Shown here one piece after another: positions 1-30,216 of a stretch of DNA of 33,687 nt (positions are counted from its first letter, which is position 1; each line of letters begins with the position of its first letter). The stretch is from Pelagicoccus sp. SDUM812003 (GTDB lineage Bacteria > Verrucomicrobiota > Verrucomicrobiia > Opitutales > Opitutaceae). The notes under the pieces were generated by a model, which saw only the letters and a program-made list of their open reading frames with translations, was not told the DNA's origin and searched no databases. The position numbers and the translations under genes were made by a program. Location: positions 1-33,687 of the forward strand of contig NZ_JARXHY010000026.1 in NCBI RefSeq assembly GCF_031127815.1. The letters run 5' to 3'.

Positions 1-114
1 CCCCCCCCTTGCCGACAGTCGTATTATTATCATTATTTAAATCGAGACCCAACCAGATAGTTAACAGAAATCAGATCTTCCCATTCCAACACGTCAAAGG
101 TAACGCTTACAGAA

Positions 115-1176: not shown

Positions 1177-1181
1177 CCCTC

Positions 1182-5817: not shown

Positions 5818-5831
5818 TACCTACATCTACA

Positions 5832-6596: not shown

Positions 6597-6773
6597 GAAC
6601 GCACTAGCGACAGAGCAAGAAACCAACCTCATCGCCGCCCTGACCCGAAGACTACCATCAAAGACCCCAGGAGACTTGAACTATTATCCAACAAAGCTAT
6701 CAAATCATCAGGAACTCAGCCTTCATCGCGGCACTGAACGATTTGGGACTTACTCCTAATTTTGAACAAATTC

Positions 6774-7862
6774 ATGCCAGCCAACAAACCAGCCATCTCA
6801 ATAGTAATGTCCGTTTACAACAGCGAGAAATACCTCGCTGAATCAATCGAGAGCATCCTCCATCAAACGTTCACCGACTTTGAGTTCATTATTATCGATG
6901 ACGGCTCTGCCGACAGGAGCCGATCGATCATTGAGTCCTATCTGGCAAAAGACAAACGAATCACGTTAATCAGCCGCGAAAACAAAGGCCTACCATACTC
7001 ACTAAACGAAGGCATCGCACTTGCGGAAGGAAGATACATCGCACGCATGGACGCTGACGATATTTCCCTGCCCAATCGTATCGAGAAACAGATCGCGTTC
7101 ATGGACTCACACAAAGAGATTGGGGTTTGTGGAACATTAGCTTACCTCTTCCAGGACAACCCCACAAAAAGGCAAGTATTGCGACACCCAGAGGACCATG
7201 ACTCATTGAGAGTGCGATTACTGTTTTCTGTTTGCTTCATCCACCCGACAGTTATCATCCGAAAAAAGCTGCTAGACGAACTAGATTATATTTACAACGT
7301 TGATTTCAACAACTCTCAAGACTACGAACTCTGGTCAAGATTGGCCGACAAAACTAGATTTTTCAACATTCAACAACCACTAATATATTACCGGGTGTCC
7401 CCCACAAGCATCACCGCGAACACGAACAAAGAGAGACTAACCTCAAGATACCCGCTAATTTCCAAGGTTCAGAAAGAGCAACTCGCGATACTTGGATTAG
7501 ACTTGAATGCAGACGAATCAATCATGCATTTTAGACTTGGATTAAATACTGACATGATACTCCTGAATAAGAATGCTAGCTATGTTAAAAGCCACCTGTA
7601 CAGGTTAATCAAAGCGAACAGAAAAGAAAGACAATTCGACAGAATAAAACTATACAACTTCTTGTCCAAAAAGTATTTTATATTTACAGTGCTTACATTT
7701 AAAAACAACTATAAAAACAATATCTTAAACCTTTTTAGCTTTATGTTCATAAGAGGACTTATTCAGATTTCATACGAACAGGTGCTTAATCTCTTACTCA
7801 TTACCTCATTACTGTCCTCTTCAAAGCACACAACCAAAGACCGTGAATCACTAAACAACTAG
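6774..7862 (+). CDS. GT2 family glycosyltransferase
   Basis: An inverting GT-A glycosyltransferase (362 residues from the ATG at 6774). The N-terminus shows the classic GT2 start (PAISIVMSVYNSEKYLAESIESILHQ), the nucleotide-binding IIDDGS, GLPYSLNEGIALAEGRYIARMDADD with the metal-binding DxDD, and a later FNNSQDYELWSRL acceptor segment. A TTG four codons upstream (6762) would also be in frame. ATG is chosen because neither has a ribosome binding site and the family start fits both. The last ~100 residues are lysine-rich with hydrophobic stretches (about 335-352) that may associate with the membrane. It is separated from the methyltransferase by 177 bp with no clear gene. Confidence 0.88.
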   Translation: MPANKPAISIVMSVYNSEKYLAESIESILHQTFTDFEFIIIDDGSADRSRSIIESYLAKDKRITLISRENKGLPYSLNEGIALAEGRYIARMDADDISLPNRIEKQIAFMDSHKEIGVCGTLAYLFQDNPTKRQVLRHPEDHDSLRVRLLFSVCFIHPTVIIRKKLLDELDYIYNVDFNNSQDYELWSRLADKTRFFNIQQPLIYYRVSPTSITANTNKERLTSRYPLISKVQKEQLAILGLDLNADESIMHFRLGLNTDMILLNKNASYVKSHLYRLIKANRKERQFDRIKLYNFLSKKYFIFTVLTFKNNYKNNILNLFSFMFIRGLIQISYEQVLNLLLITSLLSSSKHTTKDRESLNN

Positions 7863-8176
7863 CAAAGTATTGTTAGACTTGAAATCAAATCAAAAGCATT
7901 TTTATAGTTTAAAACAGCAAGGGCCATCGACCACCAGAATGCTCAATCACACCCAGCAGCAATATAAAGCAGAGGCGACTAACCCACTATACAGCATCTA
8001 GAGCCCACTAAACAGGCTTCGTCGTCAATCGATTCCGAGACGAGCAAATCATTCGAATGAGCTTGGCCGTGACAAGAAAAACTCAAGACTTACCGACATT
8101 CGCATCCGAAAGAGTCCCATTGTAAATCTGCAAATCTGATCACGTACATCACAGACTACCATTGAATACCTTGATT
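7863..8176 (+). other. Intergenic region at a composition boundary
   Basis: A gap of about 340 bp including the promoter below. I see no gene in any frame. It separates the A-rich, G-poor fucosyltransferase block from the more balanced genes that start at 8206, and its right end carries the consensus promoter at 8177-8205. It may be a junction between two differently inherited polysaccharide modules. Confidence 0.5.
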
Positions 8177-14504: not shown

Positions 14505-16976
14505 ATGAAGTTGCCCAAGATCCTTCTTCTTTCGTTCCTAGGTGTTTTCAGCGCCGTCAGCTCGAACGCCCAGACTCTATCCTCAGAGCAGCAGGCGAAA
14601 CTCAACAGCCTTCCGCCTGCCTTGCGGGCCCAGGCAATCGAGGAGCTTCGCAAGTACAATTCCGCCAACCAGTCGGAAAACGCCAATAGACCGATCGAAC
14701 AGCAGGAAGTCGTCACCCGAGACGAGACGGTCGAGTCCGACGAACGCATCAAGGAGTCGTTCGAAAAGTCCACTGGGACCTCGGAAGACGAAGAGCAGTT
14801 CAGCGAGAAAAAGATCGAGCAGGAGCTCAAGCAGTTCGGCTACAATCTCTTCGCGGGCACGCCCACCACCTTCGCCCCTGGCACCATAGACATTCCCGTC
14901 CCGGTGGACTACGTTGTCGGCCCCGGCGATCAGGTGCGCATCCAGCTCTTCGGCAAGCAAAGCGCTAGCTACGACCTCTACGTCTCCCGCGAAGGGATTC
15001 TCCAAGTGCCGGAGCTCGGCCCCATATCCGTTGTGGGGCAAACCTTTCAGGAGCTGAAACAGAATATCGCCAGGCGCGTGTCCGAGCAAATGATCGGCAT
15101 GGACGTCTTCATCACCCTCGGCGAGCTTCGCTCCATCCGCGTCTTTCTTCTCGGCGACGTGAAGCATCCCGGGGCCTACACGGTGAGCTCGCTTTCCACC
15201 ATCACCAACGCTCTTTTCGTCAGCGGTGGCATTCGCTCCATCGGCTCCCTGCGCAACATCGAATTGAAGCGAGAGGGTGAAGTCATCGCGATTCTCGACC
15301 TGTACGATCTCCTGCTGAGGGGAGACATTTCCAAAGACCTGCCTCTGCAACCTGGCGACGTGATTTTCGTGCCGCCGGTCGGCAAGCTCACTGGTGTAGC
15401 AGGCGAAGTCCGCCGTCCTGCCATCTACGAATTGAAAAACGAGGATAGCATCGATCAGGTTATCGAACTTGCCGGCGGGCTGACTTCGCTGGCCTACCCA
15501 TCGCTGTCCCAGATCGAGCGCATCTCCGACAACGGTCTCAAGACCTTGCTGGATGTTGACCTAACGAAAAGCGGCTCGGGAGATACTCCGATAAAGGATG
15601 GCGACACCGTGCGCATCTACTCAGCGCTCGATCGAGTGGACAACTACGTTCGCGTGGAGGGCATGGTGGAACGCCCGGGAGACTACCAGTGGCACGAAGG
15701 CATTCGCATATCCGACATCATTTCACACATCGAACAACTGCAGAACGACGCCGACCTTAGCTATGCTCTCGTCGTCTCCAAGAATCCCATCGACGGTCGA
15801 TGGAGCACGCGCTCCTTCAGCTTCGAGAAGTATTTCCTTGGCCAGGATTCGAGGCACAATCTCGAACTGAGACCGAACGATCGCATCATCGTTTTCGATG
15901 ATACCAACGTGGAGCGAGAGAACATCGAGCAAGTGATCGAACGCCTCAAGGCCCAAGGCACCAGCGCCGAGCCTCAGAAGATCGTCAGCATCTCCGGAAG
16001 CGTGCGCCACCCGGGAGAATACCCGCTCGACCAGCAGATGCCCATCTCCGACCTGATCCGAGCGGGCGGCGGCTTCACCCAGGACGCCTACACGCTCGAG
16101 GCGGAACTTCTACGCTTCAGCGACAACGGGAAGACCGTCAGGGACTCCATCTTGCTGCCCATAGACTTGGTAAGCTTGGAATCCAACCCCAGCTTGGACA
16201 TCGAGTTGAAGCCCTTCGATTTGCTCACCATCAAGCGCATCCCCGAGTGGACAGAAAACGAGCAGATCGAGCTTTCGGGGGAAATCCGTTTCCCCGGAGT
16301 CTATACGATCGAGAGGGGCGAAACGCTCTCGCAAGTCATCGAACGAGCAGGAGGGCTCACCTCGCTCGCCCACCCTGAGTCGGCCGTTTTCCTCAGAGAA
16401 AGCCTGCGGGTGGCGGAGCAGGAAAACATCCTGAAGCTTCGCGAGCGCCTGCGCGGCGAGATCGCCAGCACCTCTCTGCAAAACGACGACGTCTCTTCGG
16501 ACAGTATCAGCACCGCGGAGTCCCTTCTGGAGCAGCTTGAAAACACTGAGGCGGCGGGACGGCTAGTAATCAACCTGCCTGAGATCCTAATGGGCATGAG
16601 GGACGTGACGCTCAAGGCCGGCGACAAGCTCAAGGTGCCCAAGGAGCCGCAAGCGGTCACCATCATCGGAAGCGTCAACTACCCCACCTCCCATCTTTAT
16701 CAAAATGACCTGACGCGCGACGATTACATCTCCCTCTCCGGAGGCCTGATGCGCAACGCTGACAAGAAGCAAATCTACATCGTGCGTGCCAATGGACGGG
16801 TCGAAACCGAAAAACGCTCCCGCTTTTTCCCCAATGGAAGCATTAGTATCCAACCCGGCGATACGATTGTGGTGCCGATCGACGTGGATCGCATGGCTCC
16901 GCTAAAGCTCTGGAGCGCCACCAGCCAGATCTTCTATCAAATCGCCCTCGGCGCCGCCGCTATCAATTCGTTCTAG
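14505..16976 (+). CDS. Polysaccharide export protein with multiple SLBB domains (Wza-like)
   Basis: Predicted periplasmic/outer-membrane export channel component. The 823-residue protein starts with a signal peptide (1-22, ending SSNA) without a lipobox Cys. A charged Gln/Glu-rich linker follows, then the polysaccharide-export (PES) domain at about 130-215 (DYVVGPGDQVRIQLFG, VPELGPISVVGQTF). About five to six SLBB units follow, recognisable by repeats of the form G-x-V-x-x-PG-Y and AGG: VKHPGAYTV, VRRPAIYEL, VERPGDYQW, VRHPGEYPL, IRFPGVYTI and VNYPTSHLY. This is much longer than E. coli Wza (~380) and resembles multi-SLBB export proteins of non-enterobacterial phyla. The Wzz-like partner follows after a small inserted gene. 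Confidence 0.9.
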   Translation: MKLPKILLLSFLGVFSAVSSNAQTLSSEQQAKLNSLPPALRAQAIEELRKYNSANQSENANRPIEQQEVVTRDETVESDERIKESFEKSTGTSEDEEQFSEKKIEQELKQFGYNLFAGTPTTFAPGTIDIPVPVDYVVGPGDQVRIQLFGKQSASYDLYVSREGILQVPELGPISVVGQTFQELKQNIARRVSEQMIGMDVFITLGELRSIRVFLLGDVKHPGAYTVSSLSTITNALFVSGGIRSIGSLRNIELKREGEVIAILDLYDLLLRGDISKDLPLQPGDVIFVPPVGKLTGVAGEVRRPAIYELKNEDSIDQVIELAGGLTSLAYPSLSQIERISDNGLKTLLDVDLTKSGSGDTPIKDGDTVRIYSALDRVDNYVRVEGMVERPGDYQWHEGIRISDIISHIEQLQNDADLSYALVVSKNPIDGRWSTRSFSFEKYFLGQDSRHNLELRPNDRIIVFDDTNVERENIEQVIERLKAQGTSAEPQKIVSISGSVRHPGEYPLDQQMPISDLIRAGGGFTQDAYTLEAELLRFSDNGKTVRDSILLPIDLVSLESNPSLDIELKPFDLLTIKRIPEWTENEQIELSGEIRFPGVYTIERGETLSQVIERAGGLTSLAHPESAVFLRESLRVAEQENILKLRERLRGEIASTSLQNDDVSSDSISTAESLLEQLENTEAAGRLVINLPEILMGMRDVTLKAGDKLKVPKEPQAVTIIGSVNYPTSHLYQNDLTRDDYISLSGGLMRNADKKQIYIVRANGRVETEKRSRFFPNGSISIQPGDTIVVPIDVDRMAPLKLWSATSQIFYQIALGAAAINSF

Positions 16977-18585: not shown

Positions 18586-19737
18586 TTATCTGCGAAGCAA
18601 TACTCGTTCACGAAGCCACAAAGCGGGTCCGAGAATGAAATACAATCCTCGCAGCCAGGGGGGCAGCGTCACCTTCTCGTAGGCGTTGGGCCAGAGCAGG
18701 AGCTGCAGCACATAGCCCGTCTTCTGCCGCAAGCTCGCGTAAAGCGAACAAACGAAAAGGCTTCTTCGAGCCATGTTCGTCGCCCTTCCCGGATACCCCT
18801 CTTCGGCGAGAATCTGTTCGATGCAAAATCGCTCTCGCCAGCTCGACACGCTCCGTGGAGGTTCGGGATGGGTATCGTCTCCTGATTCAGACCGCCAGAA
18901 TCGCCCCGCAAGGCGCGATCTGATACGGGACGCTTCGCAGGGATAAGGCTCCGTGGTTGCTTGCGAAAGCTGATGCGAATCCCAAAGCCATTTCAGTCGA
19001 TTCCAGCAATGCGAAGAGCCATGGATATCCAGATAGGCCAGCAGCTCGCGAGCTCCTGGTATCGCGACGCTCCGGCCGGAAATCTGGACCTGGCGGCGAC
19101 TCGCCCAAAGCTGATCATCGGTAAACGGCATCAGAGCCTCGTTTCGAGACAGTTTCCAATGGAGCTCGATCAGTACGGTCCCCTTTCGGAGATGGATGTG
19201 ATAGAGGCTGGGGGGTCTTGCGTTTCCAGATAGGATCAAATCCCAAAGGGGTTTGTCGAGAATCTCGAATCCAAACCCGCCTAGCAGATTCACTGCTCGG
19301 GCGAGATCCCGCTCGCGAACCAGCAAATCCAAGTCATTGAACTCTCGCTTCACGGGATCTCCATAAATCAGCTGGGAAACGATTGGTCCTTTCAAACTCA
19401 GATAAGGGATCTCCTCTTGCTCAAAGCGCGAGGCGACTGCCAGCAGCTCAGCCACGGCCTTCATTTGCGTGAGAGTGATTCGATTCCTAGCTTGGGTCAG
19501 CTCGCTGCGAATTGCGGGATCGATGACTCGCCAGTGATCGCTTGCTTGAAGCTGAGCGCAAACCGCGACCAGCACCCGGTGCCGGGCAAGAAGCTTTGAA
19601 AATCTCGACCAGTCGATGCGCTGGTCGAGGGAATCGTCGTTACCTAGAGGCCCCTTTGGACCAGACTCGAGCGAAGCCAGGAGCAGACGCAGCTCCGGGC
19701 AGACGCTGGCGATTCGAGAACTCCGCTGCCGCCGCAT
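18586..19737 (-). CDS. Uncharacterised nucleotidyltransferase (NTP_transf_5 type)
   Basis: A 383-residue protein with the fold signature of the uncharacterised NTP_transf_5 group: LSLKGPIVSQLIYGDPVKREFNDLDLLV (about 113-140), where D135-x-D137 would bind metal, followed by IELHWKLSRN and a lengthy helical C-terminus. The substrate is unknown. Genes of this group are known to occur in lasso-peptide clusters, which matters because one lies 2.5 kb away. I chose ATG 19737, 11 bp after the upstream dehydratase stop; the frame stays open further upstream but would overlap that gene. It probably shares the dehydratase transcript. A role in polysaccharide or lipid modification is the alternative. Confidence 0.75.
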   Translation of the reverse strand: MRRQRSSRIASVCPELRLLLASLESGPKGPLGNDDSLDQRIDWSRFSKLLARHRVLVAVCAQLQASDHWRVIDPAIRSELTQARNRITLTQMKAVAELLAVASRFEQEEIPYLSLKGPIVSQLIYGDPVKREFNDLDLLVRERDLARAVNLLGGFGFEILDKPLWDLILSGNARPPSLYHIHLRKGTVLIELHWKLSRNEALMPFTDDQLWASRRQVQISGRSVAIPGARELLAYLDIHGSSHCWNRLKWLWDSHQLSQATTEPYPCEASRIRSRLAGRFWRSESGDDTHPEPPRSVSSWRERFCIEQILAEEGYPGRATNMARRSLFVCSLYASLRQKTGYVLQLLLWPNAYEKVTLPPWLRGLYFILGPALWLRERVLLRR

Positions 19738-19748
19738 CAAGATGCGAA

Positions 19749-21725
19749 CTACGCCGTCTTCCCTTTGAAGGATACGATTTTCGCTCCCTCGGCTTTCACC
19801 CCGTCGTGGCGGTAGGCGCTGCCCACTTCCGCATGAGCGGGGGCCCACTGCGGGGCGGAGAAATCGGGAATGTACTCCGGCACGAAGCTGTTGAGCTTGC
19901 GCTTGAGAGCGTTGTAGTCGGAAGAACGCAGCAGTGGGGAGAGCTCGCGAAGAAACTTCCGCACCTCAGCCTCGTCCGATCGCTGACCGGTGAATCGAAA
20001 CACCTTCTTGTTTTCGGTGAGCTCCAAGGTCTCCTGGCCGTGCTGGAGTTCCTCGTAGAGCTTTTCGCCGGGGCGCAATCCAGTGAACTTGATCTCCACA
20101 TCCTCGCCCACTCTGAGTCCGCTCAGCTTGATCATCTGCTTGGCGAGATCGTAGATCTTCATCGGCTCACCCATATCGAGGACGAAAATCTCTCCTCCCG
20201 CGGCGTCGATGGAACACTCGAGCACCAAGCCCACCGCTTCAGGGACCGTCATGAAATAGCGGGTGATCTCCGGATGGGTCACCGTCAGGGGACCGCCTTC
20301 CTCCAACTGTCGCTTGAAGGTGGGAATAACGCTGCCCGAGGAGCCGAGAACGTTTCCAAACCTCACCGCCACGAACTGCGTGATCTTCGAAGAGCCTTGA
20401 ATGGATTGCAGGAAGATCTCGGCTAAGCGCTTGGACACGCCCATGACGTTGGTCGGATTGACGGCCTTGTCGGTGGAGATGAACACGAAGCGCTCCACCT
20501 CGTGCTTGATCGCCAGATCCGCCAAAAGGGCGGTACCCAGCGTATTGTTGCGTATGGCCTCCCCTGGCTGATGCTCCATCATGGGCACGTGCTTGTGGGC
20601 CGCCGCGTGGAAGATCACATCCGGAAGAAAGCCGCCGAGAAGAAAATCCATGCGGGCCTCGTCGGTGATATCGCCGATGAAGGCATGCGAAGCGATTTCC
20701 GGGAACTCCGTCTTTATCTTTTGCTCGGTCTGAAAAAGCAGGTACTCCGCACGCTCGACCATCAACAGCATGCTAGGATTGCACTGGGCGATCTGATGAC
20801 AGAGCTCTCCGCCGATGGTTCCGCCAGCGCCCGTGACCATCACGACCTTTCCTGTAAGCTCCTTTAGAACCTTCTTGGAGTGCAGCTCTATCGAGTTGCG
20901 CCCGAGAAGGTCATCGATTTTCACCGGGCGGAGCTTATCCAGCTTTTTCCGTCCCGATACCAGGTCGTCCCAAGAGGGCACGGTTTCGATGGGGATCTCG
21001 AAACGCTCGGCCTGCTCGGTGATCTCGCGAATCTTGGACGGGGTCGCAGTGGGCATGGCCACGATCAGCTTGGTCACATTGCCATCTCGAGCGTTGGTCA
21101 TCAGGGCGCTTACCGATCGGTAGACCTTCAAGCCGTGAACATGCTTGTTCCACTTCAGAGAGTCGTCGTCCACGAAAGCAACCGGAACCAGCGACTTTCC
21201 CGACTTGCTCATCAAATGGGCCGCGAGCGCCGCGCCCGTCTGCCCGGCCCCGTAGATGGCCACGCGTTGCTGGGCGGACCCGTCCGATAGGGCCGCCATG
21301 CCAGATCGCTTTTCGCGAAAGATTCGAAGCGAGGTTCGGAAAACGCAAATGAGACTGACGGAGAAAAAGTAGTCCAGCACGATGGCCGACTTGGAAGCGA
21401 GCAGTCCCAAATCGGAGTAGAAGGAAGCGACGAGAAAAACCAGCATCGGCGCCCCCATGGCCGCAGCCAGCCGGTACACGTCGGGAAGCCGGAAAAACGT
21501 GAGCAGCCCCTTGAATTGACCGAAAGCCAGCAATGAAAGCAGCTTGATCGGGATCAACCAGAAAACGGTCTGAAGCAGGAGGCCCTGAGTCCGATCGCTG
21601 ATGGTGAAGCTGTCCCTGAACTCGAAGGCCAGCATCACGCTCGCCGCGCAAAGAAGGCCGTAAGAAACAAGCAGGATGGGAATTCTAGACTGTTGCTTCA
21701 GCCAGAGGGAGGTTTGGGCTGTCAT
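19749..21725 (-). CDS. FlaA1/PglF/WbpM-type UDP-sugar 4,6-dehydratase, membrane bound
   Basis: Predicted to convert UDP-GlcNAc to a 4-keto-6-deoxy sugar, the first step to bacillosamine, QuiNAc or FucNAc. The N-terminus has four hydrophobic segments and a first Rossmann-like domain (AIYGAGQTGAALAAHL). The C-terminal domain has the SDR NAD motif VTGAGGTIGGEL, HAAAHKHVPMME, FVFISTDKAVNPTNVMG and MGVSK, where Met replaces the usual Tyr of the catalytic triad, as is characteristic of WbpM/PglF/FlaA1. RPGEKLYEEL follows. Starts at 21725 or 21767 (658 or 672 residues) are both possible; neither has a clear Shine-Dalgarno. It supplies sugar precursors for the polysaccharide genes on the opposite strand. 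Confidence 0.92.
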   Translation of the reverse strand: MTAQTSLWLKQQSRIPILLVSYGLLCAASVMLAFEFRDSFTISDRTQGLLLQTVFWLIPIKLLSLLAFGQFKGLLTFFRLPDVYRLAAAMGAPMLVFLVASFYSDLGLLASKSAIVLDYFFSVSLICVFRTSLRIFREKRSGMAALSDGSAQQRVAIYGAGQTGAALAAHLMSKSGKSLVPVAFVDDDSLKWNKHVHGLKVYRSVSALMTNARDGNVTKLIVAMPTATPSKIREITEQAERFEIPIETVPSWDDLVSGRKKLDKLRPVKIDDLLGRNSIELHSKKVLKELTGKVVMVTGAGGTIGGELCHQIAQCNPSMLLMVERAEYLLFQTEQKIKTEFPEIASHAFIGDITDEARMDFLLGGFLPDVIFHAAAHKHVPMMEHQPGEAIRNNTLGTALLADLAIKHEVERFVFISTDKAVNPTNVMGVSKRLAEIFLQSIQGSSKITQFVAVRFGNVLGSSGSVIPTFKRQLEEGGPLTVTHPEITRYFMTVPEAVGLVLECSIDAAGGEIFVLDMGEPMKIYDLAKQMIKLSGLRVGEDVEIKFTGLRPGEKLYEELQHGQETLELTENKKVFRFTGQRSDEAEVRKFLRELSPLLRSSDYNALKRKLNSFVPEYIPDFSAPQWAPAHAEVGSAYRHDGVKAEGAKIVSFKGKTA

Positions 21726-22235: not shown

Positions 22236-23135
22236 ATGCCTCAATACATCGCCTACTCACTTAGAATCCAATCCGAGTTCGAAATCCCCGAGTTTCACCA
22301 GGCCTCCTTCCCTGATGGCAATCTCGACGTAGCCATAGCCTCGAACACCGTCGGGTCCATAGGAACCCCCGCCGAGCGTGGAGTCACTTGGAAAGCATCT
22401 GCAAACCTATTGGAACTCAGGGTTCCGTCCGTCGCCAATTTCCTCGTTGTCGATGGCCGCAACATTCACATCGAACTATTCGACCCAACTAAAGAACGAG
22501 AGATGCGCGTCTATCTGCTCGGTTCCGTAATTGCGGCGCTACTTTACCAACGTGGCGATCTTGTCATGCACGCCTGCTCGATTGCTACCCCCAATGGAGC
22601 GACATTGTTCTGCGGCAAGTCGGGAGCCGGCAAATCAACCCTCGCAGCCACTTTAGCGCTAAACGGCTATCCAATGATCGCCGACGATGTAACCGTCATC
22701 CGCAACTCAGACGGATGCGGCTTCTATGCCCCTCCGTCCTTCCCAATCTCCCGCTTGTGCGGCGATGTCGTTTCGCTCTTAAACTGGACAAAAGCTAAAT
22801 ACGCGCCGCTCGAACTCGAAGAACGTAAGTTCCAAACCAGCTCTCCCCGCTTCGCTAGCAAAGCCCAGCTGCCAACCAGAATCGCTTTCCTCATACCAGA
22901 CGCTGTAGAACGGATCTCCATCCGACCATTCAGTCCCCTTGAATCCATCAGCAATCTAGTAAAAAGATCATATCGCTACCGATTCGCAGTTGGCATGGGG
23001 CTAAAAGAAGCGCACTTCAAAAACATCACAGAGCTCGCTCAATCGGTCCAATGCTTCGAGATTCGCCGGCCCATTGGCCTGCAAAACCTAGATTCTTCAT
23101 TGCGAGCGCTCATGGACTTCGTAAGAGACGAATAA
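22236..23135 (+). CDS. HPr-kinase-like protein, lasso-cluster kinase type
   Basis: Probably a tailoring kinase. The 299-residue protein has an N-terminal beta-rich domain, LVMHACS (110-115), Walker A GKSGAGKST (127-135) and YPMIADDV (145-152), the HPrK/P-type catalytic core, but lacks the HPr-binding architecture of true HprK. Homologues in paeninodin-type lasso clusters phosphorylate the side chain of the precursor's C-terminal serine; the precursor encoded 1.2 kb downstream ends in Ser. It is the first gene of a tightly spaced + strand run (4 bp to the sulfotransferase). Other HprK-like proteins of unknown function accompany PqqD-like genes, so the kinase activity is inference. Confidence 0.82.
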   Translation: MPQYIAYSLRIQSEFEIPEFHQASFPDGNLDVAIASNTVGSIGTPAERGVTWKASANLLELRVPSVANFLVVDGRNIHIELFDPTKEREMRVYLLGSVIAALLYQRGDLVMHACSIATPNGATLFCGKSGAGKSTLAATLALNGYPMIADDVTVIRNSDGCGFYAPPSFPISRLCGDVVSLLNWTKAKYAPLELEERKFQTSSPRFASKAQLPTRIAFLIPDAVERISIRPFSPLESISNLVKRSYRYRFAVGMGLKEAHFKNITELAQSVQCFEIRRPIGLQNLDSSLRALMDFVRDE

Positions 23136-23139
23136 CGGC

Positions 23140-23976
23140 ATGCACGGCTTCATCTGGCTAGCGTCCTATCCGAAGTCCGGGAACACTTGGCTGAGAGCTT
23201 TCCTCTGCAGCTACTTTCTGCGCGATGGCGGGACCATCGAACTCGACCGGCTCCCTTTCGGCTCTTTCATCACCCAACGCGAACTGATCGACGACTGGAT
23301 CGGCTTCGAATCATCCGATTGGCCCGACCAAGAAATAGACCTCTATCGCCCCGCCATCCACCTCCGACTCGCGGAGAAACTCCCCGAGCTCTCGTTTTGC
23401 AAGACGCACGAACGCTTCCGCGAAAACCGCGAGGGCGACAGCATTTTTCCAACAAAAGCCACTCGCGCCACCATACTCATCGTACGCGACCCGAGAGACG
23501 TGGTCTGCTCCTTCGCCCACCACCTGCGAAGACCGATCCAAGAAGTCATAGACATCTTGGCAGACGAGGAATACATCCTTGACCACGCTCCCCTCAGCGC
23601 ATTCTCGAAAATCCCTGAACCTCTCGGATCCTGGAGTGGCCACACTCTCTCTTGGCTAGACTCCCCCCTAGATCCCTACATCATCCGGTACGAAGACATG
23701 GCAAGCAACCCAACCGCGACTTTCGAAAACCTTCTGTCTTTTCTCGGCTATACCGTAGACTCAGCCAAGCTCCAGAAAGCTATCGTCGCCACGCGCTTTG
23801 CCCAACTTGCCAAACAGGAGTCCGAATCCGGCTATCGGGGCAAAAATCCAAACGTGAAAACCTTCTTTCGCCAAGGAATGCAGTCAGCATGGAAAAGACA
23901 CCTTACGCCACTGCAAGAAGAGCAAATTTGCGAGCGACATGCAGCCATGATGCATCAGCTGAAATACGAGTTTTAG
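23140..23976 (+). CDS. PAPS-dependent sulfotransferase
   Basis: A soluble 278-residue sulfotransferase of the Sulfotransfer_1 type. The 5'-phosphosulfate loop is ASYPKSGNTWLR (about 8-19) and the 3'-phosphate site ILIVRDPRDVVCS (112-124). YEDMASNPTATFENLLSFLGY and the C-terminal FFRQGMQSAWKRHLT (residues near 243-257) complete the PAPS-binding signature. It begins 4 bp after the kinase gene, so it very probably belongs to the lasso-like operon. The acceptor could be a hydroxyl of the peptide (Ser, Tyr or a beta-hydroxy group) or a sugar attached to it; sulfation of the nearby polysaccharide is the alternative. Confidence 0.88.
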   Translation: MHGFIWLASYPKSGNTWLRAFLCSYFLRDGGTIELDRLPFGSFITQRELIDDWIGFESSDWPDQEIDLYRPAIHLRLAEKLPELSFCKTHERFRENREGDSIFPTKATRATILIVRDPRDVVCSFAHHLRRPIQEVIDILADEEYILDHAPLSAFSKIPEPLGSWSGHTLSWLDSPLDPYIIRYEDMASNPTATFENLLSFLGYTVDSAKLQKAIVATRFAQLAKQESESGYRGKNPNVKTFFRQGMQSAWKRHLTPLQEEQICERHAAMMHQLKYEF

Positions 23977-24012
23977 CTTGATAACCCATTCGCCACAAGC
24001 ACCTTCTAATAC

Positions 24013-24300
24013 ATGAATTTCGCGGAGTTAACTCCTTCTTCCATTGTGGCCCGGAACGAAGAAATCCTTTCTACATGCCTTGGCGAAGAAACGGTGATGA
24101 TGGACATCGAAAGCGGGAATTACTTCGGCCTTGGACTCATCGGCTCGCGTATCTGGCAACTCATCGAAACCCCCAACTCCATCCAACAAATTCTCGATAG
24201 TCTCCTTGCTGAATATGAAGTCGAAAAGGAACAGTGCCTCGAAGACATAATCGATTTTCTCGACCAGCTAGCCCAAAACCGCATAGTGCTAACCAAGTAA
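24013..24300 (+). CDS. PqqD-like leader-recognition protein (lasso B1)
   Basis: A 95-residue RiPP recognition element protein. It is predicted to bind the precursor leader and deliver it to the processing enzymes. The PqqD fold pattern is clear: a beta-rich start (IVARNEEILSTCLGEETVMMDIESGNYFGLGLIGSRIWQLI), then helices (SIQQILDSLLAEYEVEKEQCLEDIIDFLDQLAQNRIVL). It is free-standing, as in clusters with split B1 and B2, and lies 20 bp before the precursor gene. No Shine-Dalgarno is visible. Confidence 0.9.
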   Translation: MNFAELTPSSIVARNEEILSTCLGEETVMMDIESGNYFGLGLIGSRIWQLIETPNSIQQILDSLLAEYEVEKEQCLEDIIDFLDQLAQNRIVLTK

Positions 24301-24320
24301 CCCTCTGATCAAAATCGCAT

Positions 24321-24479
24321 ATGAACGATCCGGAAAACCAGCCTCTGGAAAGACCAGAAGCCCAGTCATCGAAAAAACAATGGAGCAAGCCCGAGCTCAA
24401 AGCTCTCGAAATTTCCGAGAACACCAAATCAGGGCCACTCATCAATATTAGTGAGGATGCTTTCTACCGCCCCTCTTGA
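24321..24479 (+). CDS. Lasso-peptide-like precursor (A)
   Basis: A 52-codon gene between B1 and the cyclase. The leader carries W21-x2-P24-x-L26-x2-L29 (QWSKPELKAL), matching the aromatic-x2-P-x-L element bound by B1 proteins, and Thr35, the conserved penultimate leader residue. Cleavage after K36 leaves the core SGPLINISEDAFYRPS (16 residues). Ser1 would join the Glu9 side chain in a 9-residue ring, with a 7-residue tail and Phe12/Tyr13/Arg14 as possible plugs. The x-Gly-Pro start resembles paeninodin (AGPGTSTPD..., ring at Asp9). Cleavage one residue later (Gly1 with Glu8 or Asp9) is the alternative. The stop overlaps the cyclase start (TTGA). Confidence 0.82.
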   Translation: MNDPENQPLERPEAQSSKKQWSKPELKALEISENTKSGPLINISEDAFYRPS

Positions 24480-26092
24480 CCATCGGCTTTAATAGCTTGG
24501 ACTCTCAGGTCGTCAGCTTCCCTCTAAAGCCGCAGTCCGTCCCTAACTCACAACTCCTTTTCCTCGAGGGGAATTGGCGATCCGGGCCCAATGAGCTGCT
24601 TAAGCTCTACGAGCAGTATGGCTTCGACCTGCTCCCTAAGCTTACAGGTGGATTCGCATTCGCCTTAATCGACTATAAACGGGATCTGATATTTGCCGCT
24701 CGCGACCTTGCTGGCATCGTCCCTTTCTACTTCGAGCACAGCGCACGCGAGCTAAAGTTCAGCTCTTGCCTATCCTCTCTCGTATCATCTGGAGCCGAAA
24801 CCACCCTCGATGAAGCCGAAGCCAAACGTTTCCTGTCTTCGAGCTTCCTATCCCCAAGCCAAACGGGATACCTAAACATAAAGGTCCTACCTCCCGGGCA
24901 CTATCTAACTGCCAAAGCCGATACACTCAGTATCAGTCCCTATTTCGCGGATACAAGCCTTGCCCCCCGGGCCGGAACAGACGAATCATACTCAGAGGAG
25001 CTCAAAAAGCTCCTGATAACAACGATCCGCGACCATACTCCTCGCCGAGCAAACTGGGGCACGCACATCAGCGGGGGACTCGACTCAGCCACGGTCACGC
25101 AGATCGCTAGCGACCACGCGGACAATTCGTCTACCGGAGGCTTCTCCTGGCTTCCAGCACCCAGCGACTCAAACCGCACTAGTTTCGAATACGAACTCGC
25201 TTACGCTTCCTCTCGATCGAGCAACTCCCCCTTAATCTTTTGCGGCCCTACAGCCGACGACGTAGTCAGTGTTTTAAGGAGGTCGTGGCCCCAACAACCC
25301 TACACAGGGTCGCTATTGAACGAATGGGCAGTATTGAAAGCAGCCCAAGCTCGCGGCATTACCTGCCTGCTTTCGGGATGGGGCGGAGACGAACTTGTGT
25401 CACATAGCGGCTCAAAAACCCCGCTGTCTTTGCTCCGCAGCAAACAATGGAAGGACCTTCAAGTCTACTACTCCAACGCTGGACGCCACCCGCGCCTCCG
25501 CATCGGCCTTCTTGCTGCGAAACAGCTCCTCCGAAACGGCTCGAGCCGCCTCTTCCCCCGCCCCGCCAAACCCAACCCTTTCCTTTCTCGCGCCGTCAAT
25601 CACGAAAGTCTTTCTCGTTTCCCCTCTACGAGAAGTACTCTACAGGAGCAACAGCGAGAGCTCATCAATCACGGAGCCCTTCAAGCTCGACTCGCGTGCT
25701 GGCACGCAGCTGGAGCCAACCACGGCATTTCTTACATTTTCCCGCTTTTAGACCGACGGTTGATCGAATTCTCCCTAAGGCTGCCCCCACTGCAGTTCAA
25801 CGACGGCAGAACAAAGCGAAAAGTCTTTAGAGCCGCAACGCATGGAATTATTCCCGAACTGATTCGAACCAACAAAGACAAGAACGATCCCATCAGATCC
25901 GAGGCTCTGCTACAGGCCCTGCGCTCCGGCCTCGCGGAAATCGGCTGCGAACTCAGGCAGAGAAGGACGCAACCTAAACGTGCAAGCTACCTCGACATGA
26001 AACATATACTCAATGAGCTCTCTCCAGAAAAACTGGCTCAACGAACACGATTTCGTCACCTACTCACCAGCCTCGCATTTCTCGACTTTTAA
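24476..26092 (+). CDS. Lasso cyclase-like asparagine synthetase homologue (C)
   Basis: Predicted to adenylate the core's acidic side chain with ATP and close the isopeptide ring. Residues 1-~160 resemble the glutaminase domain (LTGGFAFALIDYKRDLIFAARDLAGIVPFYFE), without an N-terminal catalytic Cys, as expected for lasso cyclases, which do not use glutamine. The synthetase domain has the ATP loop SGGLDS (199-204) and LSGWGGDEL (299-307). The 538-residue length is usual. The start is TTG at 24476, overlapping the precursor stop by 4 bp (TTGA); no ATG is available near the N-terminus, so translation is probably coupled to the precursor. Confidence 0.88.
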   Translation: MTIGFNSLDSQVVSFPLKPQSVPNSQLLFLEGNWRSGPNELLKLYEQYGFDLLPKLTGGFAFALIDYKRDLIFAARDLAGIVPFYFEHSARELKFSSCLSSLVSSGAETTLDEAEAKRFLSSSFLSPSQTGYLNIKVLPPGHYLTAKADTLSISPYFADTSLAPRAGTDESYSEELKKLLITTIRDHTPRRANWGTHISGGLDSATVTQIASDHADNSSTGGFSWLPAPSDSNRTSFEYELAYASSRSSNSPLIFCGPTADDVVSVLRRSWPQQPYTGSLLNEWAVLKAAQARGITCLLSGWGGDELVSHSGSKTPLSLLRSKQWKDLQVYYSNAGRHPRLRIGLLAAKQLLRNGSSRLFPRPAKPNPFLSRAVNHESLSRFPSTRSTLQEQQRELINHGALQARLACWHAAGANHGISYIFPLLDRRLIEFSLRLPPLQFNDGRTKRKVFRAATHGIIPELIRTNKDKNDPIRSEALLQALRSGLAEIGCELRQRRTQPKRASYLDMKHILNELSPEKLAQRTRFRHLLTSLAFLDF

Positions 26093-26101
26093 CCATACCC
26101 A

Positions 26102-26680
26102 ATGACCTCGAAGCCTCATCCTCCACTCCCACACGTATCCAAGCCTTCGAACATCAAAGACCTTGGGCCCATCGACATTGCTCAGCTAAAATCATTGGTG
26201 CTTAAGCTGAGCGAAAACGTTTGGAACCGAGAAAACGAGTCAAAGGAAAATAAATACTTCTGCTTTCACCACACCAGGCACATCGTCTTTCGATTCATAA
26301 CAGCCAATCAGGATCCAAGAAAGGGGTACTCGAATCCCATCTGGCAGGTATGGAAACCCCAACTCCTACCCATCTTTGAAGCCGCATGTTCCTCTTACGG
26401 ATTCCAAAACCCCTTCTACCCTAAGGTCATGCTGGCTAGGCTCGCAGCAGGTCACGTCATCGATCGGCACGTGGATGGAGCAGGTTCAAACCTGCTAACC
26501 CACAAGATTCACATTCCCATACAAACCAACCCTCTCGCATTGTTCCATTCTGAAAACGATTCCTACTATCTTGAAGAGGGACGTGCCTATGAAGTGAACA
26601 ACGTCAAAGCCCACGGCGTTGAGAACCTAGGTCAAGAGGACCGAATCCATCTGATTTTCGAAGTCTTCGACAACGCCTGA
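26102..26680 (+). CDS. Aspartyl/asparaginyl beta-hydroxylase-like dioxygenase
   Basis: A 192-residue Fe(II)/2-oxoglutarate oxygenase. The iron ligands are H123-x-D125 (IDRHVDGAGSN) and H171 (KAHGVENLG), with R181 in EDRIHLIFEVFD placed to bind 2-oxoglutarate; THKIHIPIQTNP and the YYLEEGRAYEVNN strand fit the Asp/Asn hydroxylase cupin fold. It starts 9 bp after the cyclase stop, so it is probably in the same operon. The core contains Asn6 and Asp10 as candidate targets. Hydroxylation would create a new OH that the sulfotransferases or glycosyltransferase could use. The substrate is inferred from context only. Confidence 0.8.
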   Translation: MTSKPHPPLPHVSKPSNIKDLGPIDIAQLKSLVLKLSENVWNRENESKENKYFCFHHTRHIVFRFITANQDPRKGYSNPIWQVWKPQLLPIFEAACSSYGFQNPFYPKVMLARLAAGHVIDRHVDGAGSNLLTHKIHIPIQTNPLALFHSENDSYYLEEGRAYEVNNVKAHGVENLGQEDRIHLIFEVFDNA

Positions 26681-26683
26681 CGA

Positions 26684-28378
26684 ATGAACGGCGCCCTCGC
26701 AACGGTGACCTCCAACGACTTCGTCAATGGAACTCAGATCATGATCCGCTCGTTTCTTAACACAAACGAATGGTTCAACGGCGACATAATAATTTTCCAC
26801 ACACAGGAACTCAGCTGCGACGCTCGCGCTTTCTTGAGCAGCCTCGGCCCACGAATTCAGCTGCGACTTCCCTCCCCTTTGATCGCACAAAGAATCGAAG
26901 GTATATTTGCCCACTCGCCAAACTCGGAAACCACAAAACTACGATTCCAATCTCTTAATTGCTTCAGCCTAAGAGGCTACAGCGAGATCCTGTTCTGCGA
27001 CAGCGATATTCTATTCCTCGCAGACATCAGCGAGCTTCTCAACGCCTCAGGGGAGTTTGTCGCCGCTCCAGATGGAGCTAATTCGATGGGAAAAGCCCGC
27101 GATCGAGCCAGTTTTGAAATCATCGAAAAAAACAGCGAAAACAGGCTGCAAAGCACTTTCAACAGCGGCTTGTTCCTAGTCAGAAACGGACTACTGAATG
27201 ACGAAACAGAAAGGCTGGTGCTACAAGAACTCACCGAAGAAAAGTGGCGTGCCACACAAACTCAACACACCGATCAAGCCGTTCTCAATCGCATTTTTGC
27301 GGACCAAGCGACCTTGGTGTCGTCAGTCTACAACTACCCTCTTCGCCACCTCTCAACTCTTCGCAATCTAAACAGCATCACCCCCAAAAGGGCAAAAGCC
27401 CTTCACTTCAACCTTCCCCTCCGTCCGTGGAACCCACGCTCGAGCGACCTATCCGATTCCGTCGATACCGACCTGCGAGAAGCCTACCTAAAGTGGCACG
27501 AAGAAGCAGCCAAATGGCCGCGATACAATTCCCCCAAAACCAATCCCAGCCTCCCCAAGCCATTCAGAGGCTCACGCTACGATCTTAATCACCTGATAGA
27601 TAAGCATATCTTCATTCTCTCGCCCAACAATAGCGGATCCACATTTCTCAAAAACGCTCTCTCACTTTCTCGGAAAACCTGGAATCTTGAACGCGAAGGC
27701 CAACATACCTTCGGCTTCCAAGGTCCTAACCCCTCAAAACACAACAACCCACTTCTGTGGGCAAGCGACCCCAAACTCCTCCAATCGCTCCGCAATCCTT
27801 CCAACTACGACTGGAAGAAAACGAAAAAAGCATGGTATTTCCAAGCGTTCGCCCAAGACCCTAATGCCAACATCTTCGTCGAGAAATCGCCACCCTTCCT
27901 TCTGCTGGCCAAAAGCCTAGCCGAAAACTTCAAGAATCCCCATTTCATTTTTCTGAGTAGAAACCCCTTCGCCGTTGCCGAAGGAATCCTCCGGCGTCGA
28001 TCGAAAGACTTTCCGAATCGAAGCATAGCTATTGAACAAACTGCCCTCCATATAACAACTTGCTTAAGTATCCAAAAATCAAATATAGAGGCATTCCGAA
28101 CCAACGCACTACACTTCACTTACGAACAATTGTGCGACCAAACGGACGCCATAGCTCAAAAGCTCTCCGATCTCGCTCCAGAACTATCTGACTTAGATCT
28201 AAACCAAGTCATCCCAGTCAAAAGTCTATATGCAGAAAAACCGAGAAATATGAACAGCGAGCAGATCGCTCGACTTAGCGACCATGACCTAGCAGCCCTA
28301 TCGAAGTGCTTCGCCCCTCATGTTCGATTGTTCGATTTTTTTGGATACAGTCCCTACACCACTAGTCCTTTCTCCTAA
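26684..28378 (+). CDS. Fusion of GT8-like glycosyltransferase and sulfotransferase
   Basis: A 564-residue two-domain protein. Residues 1-~250 resemble GT8-type GT-A transferases: SEILFCDSDILFLADI with the metal-binding D106-x-D108, TFNSGLFLVRN, HTDQAVLN and ALHFNLPLRPW. Residues ~305-560 form a sulfotransferase: HIFILSPNNSGSTFLKNAL (phosphosulfate loop, about 308-326), FVEKSPP, and FIFLSRNPFAVAEGI (421-435, 3'-phosphate site). It starts 3 bp after the hydroxylase stop and is the last gene of the run. A protein that both glycosylates and sulfates would be unusual in a RiPP cluster. The linker is intact with no frameshift, so the fusion looks genuine. Substrates are unknown. Confidence 0.8.
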   Translation: MNGALATVTSNDFVNGTQIMIRSFLNTNEWFNGDIIIFHTQELSCDARAFLSSLGPRIQLRLPSPLIAQRIEGIFAHSPNSETTKLRFQSLNCFSLRGYSEILFCDSDILFLADISELLNASGEFVAAPDGANSMGKARDRASFEIIEKNSENRLQSTFNSGLFLVRNGLLNDETERLVLQELTEEKWRATQTQHTDQAVLNRIFADQATLVSSVYNYPLRHLSTLRNLNSITPKRAKALHFNLPLRPWNPRSSDLSDSVDTDLREAYLKWHEEAAKWPRYNSPKTNPSLPKPFRGSRYDLNHLIDKHIFILSPNNSGSTFLKNALSLSRKTWNLEREGQHTFGFQGPNPSKHNNPLLWASDPKLLQSLRNPSNYDWKKTKKAWYFQAFAQDPNANIFVEKSPPFLLLAKSLAENFKNPHFIFLSRNPFAVAEGILRRRSKDFPNRSIAIEQTALHITTCLSIQKSNIEAFRTNALHFTYEQLCDQTDAIAQKLSDLAPELSDLDLNQVIPVKSLYAEKPRNMNSEQIARLSDHDLAALSKCFAPHVRLFDFFGYSPYTTSPFS

Positions 28379-28591
28379 AGCGAGAATGACAGTAGGCCTA
28401 TCACACACCGGCGCAAAGAACTCATTCATTCAAAGCCCCAAGGAATCAAAAGCCATACTCACCGTGTGACATCCACTGGCAATATCCGTTGCCAAACGGG
28501 TAATTCAGTATAGATAACGTCCGAAAAGTTTCGCACAATAGATGATGAAACCTCGAAGCCAATCGACTTAGCCAAATAGCCGTTCTTCCAA

Positions 28592-29440
28592 TCAGACCGA
28601 CCCATACCCGAGATTCATCTGTGATAGCCACCTATACAAAGCAGAGTCAGCGGAAGAAGCAATTCTCGGCACCAATTTGAATTCCCGAAACCCCATCTCG
28701 AGGAAGGCCTCAACATCAAAATAAACAAAACCTAAGGACTTTCGGTTTAAAACTTCCCGAGAACACCCGCGAGTAACTGCCTTACCTTGGTTTTTCTGCG
28801 ATACACCATAGTAGCAAGTCCGTGAGGGGCAGTTGTACGCACACCCGCCGTTGGCAAAAAGTATAACTCGCCGTTTCTCGGGCAGATTCGACAAGAAATC
28901 GAGGTCGTCATTTCGATCCATAGGAAGCACCACTTGATCGTAAAGGTCGAATGCACTTTCCAAGCGCCGCTGCGAATCGATCTTTTTTATGACGCTAGCC
29001 TTGAGGCTGTACTTCGGGAAATCGTTCTTGATCTGACGAGCCAAGGAATCGTTTACGCAAATAATCGAATTCCCTGTACAATGGTGCTTTTCCAGTATCG
29101 GCAAGGTCAACTCGTAATCCTCCTTGCGAAAGAAATGGTTCGTCAGAGTCAAGGCGATCCGAATTCCTGCACGGTCAAGCGCCTTTACATGCTCCTTGGT
29201 CAATGAGCGCTCGGTAGAATGCACTCGTCCACCATACAGTGGAGATGCTATATCCAATGATCCGAACACGCTATCGATCTGCCCCAAGCCTACGTAAAGG
29301 TAATGAACCTTCAGGTAAGAAATAACATCTATTTCAGAAGATATACTCCGGCTAGACACCGTGTATCGGGCTAATGGTGACGAAAACGCCCTCAATCGTC
29401 GCACCGTCTCTGATAAAGAATGCTCAACGATACTCGCCAC
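28592..29440 (-). CDS. Hypothetical protein with Cys cluster
   Basis: I do not recognise this 282-residue protein with certainty. It has alternating beta/alpha pattern (YLYVGLGQIDSVFG, GIRIALTLTNHFF, SIICVNDSLARQI, DQVVLPMDRNDDL) suggestive of a TIM barrel, and a cysteine cluster at C200-x3-C204-x4-C209 with C226 (ANGGCAYNCPSRTCYYG), which could bind a metal or Fe-S cluster. This recalls U32-peptidase-like barrels, but the classic signature is absent. The start is GTG at 29440. It is convergent with the lasso-like operon (214 bp apart). A link to RiPP or polysaccharide modification is possible but unproven. Confidence 0.65.
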   Translation of the reverse strand: MASIVEHSLSETVRRLRAFSSPLARYTVSSRSISSEIDVISYLKVHYLYVGLGQIDSVFGSLDIASPLYGGRVHSTERSLTKEHVKALDRAGIRIALTLTNHFFRKEDYELTLPILEKHHCTGNSIICVNDSLARQIKNDFPKYSLKASVIKKIDSQRRLESAFDLYDQVVLPMDRNDDLDFLSNLPEKRRVILFANGGCAYNCPSRTCYYGVSQKNQGKAVTRGCSREVLNRKSLGFVYFDVEAFLEMGFREFKLVPRIASSADSALYRWLSQMNLGYGSV

Positions 29441-29515
29441 TTACTTCTCATTGTCTCCAAATCGCTAGAAGGTCAAATTCAGATTCCAACCAGTTCACAT
29501 AGGTCATCTACTTAG

Positions 29516-29551
29516 ACAAAAAGGACACCGAACTAAGATCGGTGCCCTTCA
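29516..29551 (-). terminator. Intrinsic terminator after the VPDSG-CTERM gene
   Basis: Read on the minus strand: GGGCACCGA, loop TCTTAGT, TCGGTGTCC, then TTTTT. A 9-bp stem with one mismatch, 24 bp after the gene's stop at 29575. Confidence 0.85.
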
Positions 29552-29574
29552 GTTATAAAATCAAAATGTGAGAC

Positions 29575-30216
29575 CTAAGCTTTGCGTCGCTTAAGCGCGA
29601 AAAACCCAATTAAGACAGCCCCCATCAAGCCAACCAGGCTGCCAGAATCCGGGACGGGTTTGGTATCGACTGCCATTATGCCAGCCTTGAGGCCAAGCCA
29701 CTCGTCGCCTTCATAAGTGACCGAGTAGTTTATAATGCCAGTTCTTTGCAGACCGACCTGTATCGACCCGCCAAAAACACTACTATCGAGAAGCAGCTCG
29801 ATGTCCTCGCCAGTCTCAAAAATATCCCCAGAACCAACGACACCAGCGCCACTTCCCGCCGCAACTCCGCTCAGCGAAAAAACCGACCCGATGATGGGAT
29901 CGAGAATCGTTCCCAACCCGATCGAAACAATCTGCTTTTCCCTGCTCAAGTTCTTAAAAAGAAACGAAATCTCCAGGTCAGTGATCAACTCTCTCAATGG
30001 GTTAAAACCAAGGCGATCTCTTTCTTTCGCTAGATCGCCGTTCGGATTGAGGATATTGAACTCACCATAAAACGTCTGAGATTGGCTGTCATTGGGATCG
30101 AACACGTGCTTAACGATATCGATATCCACATATTTGCTTGTTTGCCACAGAGCAGCGTTGGCTGCTGAAGTCCCTAGGAAGAGAAGAGTGGCAAGGGTTA
30201 GAAGTTTCGTTTTCAT
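29575..30216 (-). CDS. Secreted protein with VPDSG-CTERM sorting signal
   Basis: A 213-residue exported protein of unknown function. A signal peptide occupies residues 1-21 (MKTKLLTLATLLFLGTSAANA). The C-terminus has VPDSG, a hydrophobic segment (LVGLMGAVLIGFFAL) and a basic end (KRRKA): the VPDSG-CTERM variant of the PEP-CTERM/exosortase signal known from Verrucomicrobiota. These proteins are expected to be cut at the motif and attached to extracellular material; the system co-occurs genomically with exopolysaccharide loci. The middle domain is beta-rich with no recognised family. ATG 30216 is chosen because the signal peptide begins there; an upstream extension (to 30288) has no coding look. 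It is followed by a terminator. Confidence 0.85.
   Translation of the reverse strand: MKTKLLTLATLLFLGTSAANAALWQTSKYVDIDIVKHVFDPNDSQSQTFYGEFNILNPNGDLAKERDRLGFNPLRELITDLEISFLFKNLSREKQIVSIGLGTILDPIIGSVFSLSGVAAGSGAGVVGSGDIFETGEDIELLLDSSVFGGSIQVGLQRTGIINYSVTYEGDEWLGLKAGIMAVDTKPVPDSGSLVGLMGAVLIGFFALKRRKA

Follow-up and report, generated by a model that had tools for sequence, protein, structure and literature searches.

The operon at 22236-28378 on the + strand of contig NZ_JARXHY010000026.1 (C26) of Pelagicoccus sp. SDUM812003, a contig analysed here in its entirety (33.7 kb, hereafter the window), raises the question of whether genes for a lasso-type precursor and cyclase serve the same peptide as the adjoining genes for a kinase, a hydroxylase, a glycosyltransferase and two sulfotransferase domains. 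The gene set, the order of the genes and the conservation of the module between distant phyla are evident from sequence, and they indicate that the operon probably produces a single lasso-type peptide whose tail is modified in several ways. The operon comprises the seven genes listed below, with successive spacings of 4, 36, 20, -4, 9 and 3 bp, and a further gene outside it may belong to the pathway.

22236-23135, +, K: HPr-kinase-like lasso kinase (TIGR04352 and PF07475, both under cut-off)
23140-23976, +, ST1: PAPS (3'-phosphoadenosine 5'-phosphosulfate)-dependent sulfotransferase (PF00685, E 1e-25)
24013-24300, +, B1: PqqD-like leader-recognition protein (NF033536, 87.0 bits)
24321-24479, +, A: precursor of 52 amino acids (aa) (leader motif; NF033524, E 0.0011, under cut-off)
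24476-26092, +, C: lasso-type asparagine-synthase-like cyclase with a TTG start (PF00733; NF033535, under cut-off)
26102-26680, +, HYD: Asp/Asn beta-hydroxylase-like Fe/2-oxoglutarate (2OG) enzyme (PF05118, E 3.7e-9)
26684-28378, +, GT8-ST2 fusion: GT8 N-terminal half, Sulfotransfer_3 C-terminal half (PF01501, PF13469)
18586-19848, -, NTP_transf_5, outside the operon: possible extra tailoring gene (PF14907, E 1.5e-49)

The first-pass annotation had described seven co-directional genes that overlap or lie no more than 36 bp apart, and all seven open reading frames (ORFs) were recovered on the + strand; Pfam and NCBIfam scans of the seven proteins likewise agree with the domain identities that it had proposed. 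B1 exceeds the curated threshold of NF033536 (lasso_PqqD_Bac, cut-off 80 bits), and Pfam cut-offs are exceeded by HYD, ST1, GT8, ST2 and the PF00733 domain of the cyclase (E 1.9e-26), in which an SGGLDS motif is present in the alignment. PsmN, a nucleotidyltransferase-type protein of the pseudomycoidin (psm) cluster, presumably also belongs to PF14907, the family of the NTP_transf_5 protein.

Conservation of the module and the precursor motif

Searches with HYD covered 387 genomes of the phylum, the classes of genomes G422 (197), G550 (162) and G551 (298) and one named-contig scan, these samples overlapping and differing in threshold. Strong matches (E below 1e-70) comprise seven genes in six genomes: the window's own, G422 (two genes), G550 (locus L042), G551 (locus L043), G580 and G662. 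In six of the seven cases the gene is accompanied by those for a lasso precursor, a cyclase, GT8 and ST2, which defines loci in the window, a second verrucomicrobial metagenome-assembled genome (MAG), three Acidobacteriota and one member of the Chloroflexota; the seventh (L035) lies beside a lasso-type kinase gene on a 7.4-kb contig. Kinase, ST1 and B1 genes are found at the same locus in five of the six and together on another contig in G422, a fragmented assembly that affords no linked view. HYD is the best-conserved gene across the loci (54-64% identity), with ST2 at 44-61%, the kinase at 28-52% and the cyclase at 28-48%.

One gene encodes both GT8 and ST2 in the window, and two genes do so in L036, L042, L043 and L069; such a difference is a usual sign of linked function. 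A methyltransferase-like ORF lies between them in L069, and in L070 GT8 is broken by a run of N and stands in other frames than ST2. The order in L042 is NTP_transf_5, B2 (the leader peptidase), kinase, ST1, B1, A, C, HYD, GT8, ST2, a small ORF and a bifunctional ATP-sulfurylase/APS (adenosine 5'-phosphosulfate)-kinase, the last being a PAPS-supply gene 1 kb past ST2. BLAST relatives of the window NTP_transf_5 occur near lasso genes in L042, L069 and L070.

The window precursor has a predicted core, SGPLINISEDAFYRPS, after a leader of the form W-x-x-P-x-L...T-K (WSKPELKALEISENTK), which carries the W/YxxPxL element and a Thr two residues before the core and is equal in length in the five relatives. 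The leader consensus of the six precursors is Wx2Px[LI]x8Tx[SG], and cleavage after Thr-x would release the cores SGGLAGKPEDATYRPS (G422), GNPNTGPTTENTIGTYAPTS (L042), GGAGDKDDQDDIFYTKS (L070), GGPGTFNSPGDNPAYAS (L043) and GGTYVTMMVGDDAWYKS (L069) in the relatives. All six cores end in [ED][DN]x(1-4)Yx(1-3)S, an ending that is absent from the lasso-type precursors of all 22 comparison loci. The comparison drew on 31 stretches (the six HYD loci, L019, 20 acidobacterial B1 loci (L112-L131) and four plasmid loci (L154-L157)), from which L120, L123 and L125 were dropped for want of a clear precursor; L035/L040 and L140 (from the same genome as L036) stood outside it. Precursors were picked by eye among regular-expression candidates, and the 20 genomes besides the HYD genomes were taken, mostly from the top of the list, from 71 with a B1-type match. 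Among 7868 small ORFs (35-100 aa, from redundant loci), only the six precursors and their duplicates combine the leader motif with a Y-x(1-4)-S end. An Asp or Asn directly follows the motif acid in all six cores, a fitting site for a PF05118 enzyme. The first-pass annotation had proposed a shared lasso substrate from gene spacing, and this proposal is strengthened by the joint occurrence of the HYD/GT8/ST2 trio and the precursor motif.

The precursor ends in Ser in all ten ST1-associated loci (ST1 lies at the locus itself in nine of them and is counted on the genome level in G422), compared with 3 of 18 loci without ST1; a second, Ser-ending candidate in L131 was not counted. Five of the acidobacterial comparison loci (L115-L119), which hold kinase, B1, B2 and cyclase genes, have conserved precursors (...SLTQGSPQGTGKNLGFGDDILQ...) in which the first acid is the 14th residue after Thr-Gln, suggesting an unusual ring or cleavage. 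The four alphaproteobacterial plasmid loci combine relatives of ST1 with precursor-like ORFs whose last residue is Ser; L155 and L157 alone have all three of kinase, B1 and cyclase matches, with kinase and ST1 in L156 and ST1 alone in L154, and the candidate core in L155 has no acid for a ring.

Tailoring enzymes and the proposed pathway

The kinase keeps the H, P-loop K and DD positions in all six aligned sequences (MHA, GAGKST and ADD, by eye in the alignment), and a His-Lys-Asp-Asp catalytic motif has been described for paeninodin-type kinases (PMC9266682; this and the other PMC sources are cited from the excerpts available). The C-terminal Ser expected in the substrate of such a kinase is present in the window core, which ends RPS, and the kinase is predicted to phosphorylate this residue of the precursor.

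For ST1, the best relatives in the PDB are the sulfotransferases Teg14 (E 9.8e-14) and Teg12 (E 2.8e-13), followed by mammalian aryl and steroid sulfotransferases. Teg12/Teg14 and StaL, its nearest solved relatives by sequence, act on nonribosomal glycopeptides. The simplest reading of these Teg- and aryl-type relatives would place ST1 on the conserved Tyr; this assignment was rejected because in the ST1 loci L155 and L157 the candidate precursors lack a core Tyr, and for the same reason the Tyr pairs with the HYD/GT8/ST2 trio.

HYD matches PF05118 at 37.1 bits (cut-off 22.6), and H123, D125, H171 and R181, which we take to be its metal and 2OG ligands, are invariant in all five aligned sequences; its AlphaFold model (mean predicted local distance difference test score, pLDDT, 34) was too poor for a structure search. 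In the fusion, the GT8 half exceeds the PF01501 cut-off (E 1.2e-15), with glycogenin nearest by sequence, and the ST2 half exceeds that of PF13469 Sulfotransfer_3 (E 1.7e-8). The top Foldseek match of the ST2 model (pLDDT 77.6) is human tyrosylprotein sulfotransferase-2 (3ap3; TM-score 0.55, 15% identity, root-mean-square deviation, rmsd, 7.6).

In the pathway that we propose from these features, B1 would bind the leader (WSKPEL) and deliver the precursor, still linear, to the tailoring enzymes. The kinase would phosphorylate the C-terminal Ser16, and HYD would beta-hydroxylate Asp10 (Asn in some relatives), which adjoins the ring-closing acid. GT8 would attach a sugar, most simply to the new Asp10 hydroxyl; ST2, fused to GT8 or encoded near it, would sulfate the sugar or Tyr13, and ST1, whose gene is paired with that of the kinase, may add another sulfate. 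The leader would then be cut off after Thr-Lys by a B2 peptidase whose gene lies elsewhere in the genome, and the cyclase would link Ser1 to Glu9, yielding a ring of nine residues and a charged tail of seven. The computed [M+H]+ is 1747.865 for the bare macrolactam and 2085.836 for the product with O, hexose, SO3 and HPO3.

Similar gene sets and a shared peptide motif in such distant bacteria suggest a real, unstudied natural-product family. Its full description as a cross-phylum lasso-type family is offered tentatively and on the doubtful side: a tail in which beta-hydroxy-Asp/Asn bears a sulfated sugar, Tyr or Ser bears a second sulfate and the C-terminal Ser is phosphorylated, rings of 10-11 residues in some members and leader removal by an off-cluster peptidase in some genomes. 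If the proposed pathway is right, the cluster would provide a testable enzyme set for peptide sulfation and glyco-sulfation with exact masses predicted, suggest that a gene far from the cluster can supply the B2 step, and offer a short precursor motif for finding further members.

Points that weigh against a single tailored product

Several observations count against one lasso-type product of the whole operon, the first concerning the scope of the trio. A capsule locus lies upstream of the operon in the window (glycosyltransferases, Wzi, a polysaccharide export protein and Wzz), with a divergent polysaccharide gene 468 bp away and a convergent ORF 213 bp downstream of the operon. The lasso pathway might thus be limited to kinase, ST1, B1, A and C, with HYD and GT8-ST2 decorating capsule polysaccharide or surface proteins while sharing the transcript, an arrangement we consider rather improbable. 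It draws on this setting, on the glycosyltransferase-, epimerase- and methyltransferase-like neighbours seen by eye in L036, and on a 40% relative of HYD on an Asticcacaulis plasmid, which is accompanied by annotated sulfotransferases and a TonB receptor and lacks lasso genes. Against it, the trio accompanies lasso genes in all six readable strong loci, the precursor motif tracks the trio, and the stretches read in L042 and L069 show no capsule-assembly gene by eye; an assignment of HYD and GT8-ST2 to the capsule locus was rejected because the trio follows lasso genes in the relatives. In the Asticcacaulis plasmid, L046:11357-16307 holds three annotated sulfotransferase genes, an Asp/Asn beta-hydroxylase gene and the TonB receptor gene, and the ORF at 14517-16307 appears to join a hydroxylase half to a sulfotransferase half; this is possibly a non-lasso hydroxylation-sulfation system. 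In base composition, the start of the window's capsule locus (1-8000) is AT-rich (40-45% GC, vs 52-56% at 10-22 kb), and 26001-30000, which takes in HYD and GT8-ST2 and runs beyond the end of the operon, has 47-50% GC, vs 53-54% from kinase to cyclase.

Weak HYD relatives were found at 28 places, 26 of them in the genome searches (3 + 22 + 1) and two on plasmids. Among the 16 inspected (15 stretches, by eye and with BLAST), only L038 has lasso-like neighbours, and some adjoin annotated (L046) or suspected (L071, L073, L076 and L078) sulfotransferases, so that the pairing of a hydroxylase with a sulfotransferase is not restricted to lasso peptides. A sample of 396 Acidobacteriota genomes, which gave no result for the ST2-carrying G580 and G662 and evidently left them out, contains four weak ST2 relatives with no B1, kinase or cyclase match nearby; one of them (L152) has a weak NTP_transf_5-like neighbour. 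The first-pass annotation had held that HYD and GT8-ST2 would not belong to the pathway if their homologues regularly occurred apart from lasso genes and always with polysaccharide genes. On this criterion the strong loci support membership, six having a lasso precursor and cyclase, and most of the inspected weak relatives count against it. L038, from a member of the window genome's family, has a lasso-like leader ORF at 16577-16786 (WVAPVVTPLGVGETETGAG...) near the weak HYD homologue and asparagine-synthase-like and NTP_transf_5-like genes, and tail-collar-like proteins (by eye, of the FPPRGWAFCNGQ type) are encoded near mostly weak HYD homologues in L035, L038, L072, L074 and L076.

The peptide itself gives further grounds for caution. 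The motif was read off the same six related loci, and its match to the trio is therefore covariation and no independent test. The window core has a ring acid within positions 7-9 (Glu9); across the six cores, cleavage after Thr-x would put the motif acid at positions 9, 9, 10, 10, 11 and 11, and with this cleavage those of L042, L043 and L069 have no acid at positions 1-9, implying larger rings, shifted cleavage or a non-canonical product. Described natural lasso peptides close at residue 7-9 (PMC9266682), and related clusters yield linear phosphorylated peptides (PMC13381572). The product could accordingly lack the threaded lasso fold and be a plain macrocycle, or a tailored peptide that is linear or unthreaded, which we regard as unlikely: the window core permits an ordinary Ser1-Glu9 ring, the cyclase is retained in all six loci, engineered fusilassin tolerates a ring of up to 10 (PMC13352647), and start residues vary, as in metanodin with Asn1 (PMC12670498), so that cleavage may be shifted in the relatives. 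These relatives also pose the question of an upper limit on lasso ring size.

The precursor (NF033524 paeninodin family, 18.6 bits, cut-off 27), the cyclase (NF033535 lasso cyclase, E 4.5e-47, 161 bits, cut-off 525) and the kinase (TIGR04352 HprK_rel_A, E 3.6e-12, 46 bits, cut-off 200) all fall under their NCBIfam cut-offs, and the kinase also misses that of PF07475 (E 5.8e-5). The window cyclase has 538 aa, vs 613-617 aa in three relatives; about 75 residues are missing N-terminally, and with them the beginning of the glutaminase-like domain. None of the 131 other genomes among the 132 of the order, nine of them listed as the same family, gave a match to the fusion, and a search of plasmids gave one weak match. 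The 33.7 kb of the window hold neither a B2 peptidase nor an ABC (ATP-binding cassette) transporter gene. The description of the cluster as compact in the first-pass annotation thus needs qualification, B2 and the exporter being absent from the cluster. A decaying cluster that has lost B2 and the exporter and carries a truncated cyclase would account for these features, yet this is distinctly improbable, as all seven ORFs are open, their spacing is tight and their motifs are intact; moreover, the sole B2 match of G580 also lies off the main cluster, beside an ABC transporter gene on another contig.

An assembly edge was rejected as the cause of the missing B2, since 22 kb of the contig precede the operon and 5 kb follow it (genome completeness 97.5%). 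A genome search with Transglut_core3 (PF13471) found an orphan gene for a 170-aa B2-like protein on contig C3 (81.3-81.8 bits) and a second place (26.2 bits) inside a 1043-aa frame. A second lasso-like cluster on contig C4 (L019:6238-14570) encodes a separate precursor, which would yield the core GLPGDGVDGGAGGDSRS on cleavage after Thr-Ala, and a B1, kinase, cyclase and ABC transporter, together with a 2OG oxygenase, a JmjC-type oxygenase and a gene at L019:13620-14570 that, like its BLAST relatives, is sulfotransferase-like by eye and itself has no Pfam match. No B2 was found in the C4 cluster either, so the C3 gene may serve both clusters. In G422 the sole B2 match is on a contig different from that of the precursor and cyclase, contig breaks limiting B2 placement in both G580 and G422, and in L042, L043 and L070 B2 is linked to lasso genes.

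Finally, several loci come from MAG contigs; in one of these a run of N interrupts GT8, and in another parts of the cyclase are masked. The ST2 model also matches curacin-type, olefin-synthase and heparan sulfotransferases, and its tyrosylprotein sulfotransferase matches have modest TM-scores (0.50-0.60) and large rmsd. The pairing of each enzyme with a residue in the pathway above is a deduction from such relationships.

Comparison with known lasso peptide systems

Lasso peptides are known to undergo phosphorylation, hexose addition to the phosphate and beta-hydroxylation of Asp (PMC8498205, PMC9266682). Paeninodin-type clusters share A, B1, C, an HPr-kinase homologue and the C-terminal Ser acceptor with the window, and some in Firmicutes start with a sulfotransferase gene; their descriptions in these excerpts do not include HYD, GT8 or ST2, and the window differs further in a precursor that misses NF033524 and in its unlinked B2 (PMC8498205, PMC9266682). 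The Firmicutes clusters noted for sulfotransferase genes include that of Paenibacillus polymyxa CR1 and a canine-source screen operon (PMC11381294), and paeninodin-like clusters in Bacilli are known from capsule-locus settings (PMC13381572).

Pseudomycoidin resembles the proposed product in having a kinase and the nucleotidyltransferase-type PsmN, and carries phosphate and hexose on its C-terminal Ser (PMC8498205, PMC9266682). Its sugar is placed on the phosphate via PsmN (PMC8498205), whereas the window adds GT8, two sulfotransferases and HYD. Canucin A offers a parallel for HYD by description, with CanE performing B1-aided Fe/2OG-dependent Asp beta-hydroxylation of the linear precursor; the CanE target is the C-terminal Asp14, in contrast to the proposed Asp10 (PMC9266682). 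Known kinases likewise act on the linear precursor, B1 aiding some of these enzymes (PMC9266682, PMC10368454).

Glycosyltransferase genes lie near 36% of lasso clusters in rumen bacteria (PMC7533575), and a 2026 review refers to a lasso peptide glycosylated on Ser (PMC13352647); the available excerpts of both describe no combination with HYD and sulfotransferases. The main text of a 2022 review of post-translational modifications contains no word starting with 'sulf', and the accessible parts of the open-licence literature yielded neither a sulfated lasso peptide nor a lasso-assigned set of Asp/Asn beta-hydroxylase, GT8 and sulfotransferase. A comparable set, matched here by gene names, appears in Pontixanthobacter in a source whose excerpts present it only as halotolerance-correlated genes and never name it a cluster: under nearly consecutive orthologue numbers, it comprises a lasso B2, a nucleotidyltransferase, a sulfotransferase, an aspartyl beta-hydroxylase, a second sulfotransferase, PqqD, an asparagine synthase-related protein and a glycosyltransferase (PMC10040529).

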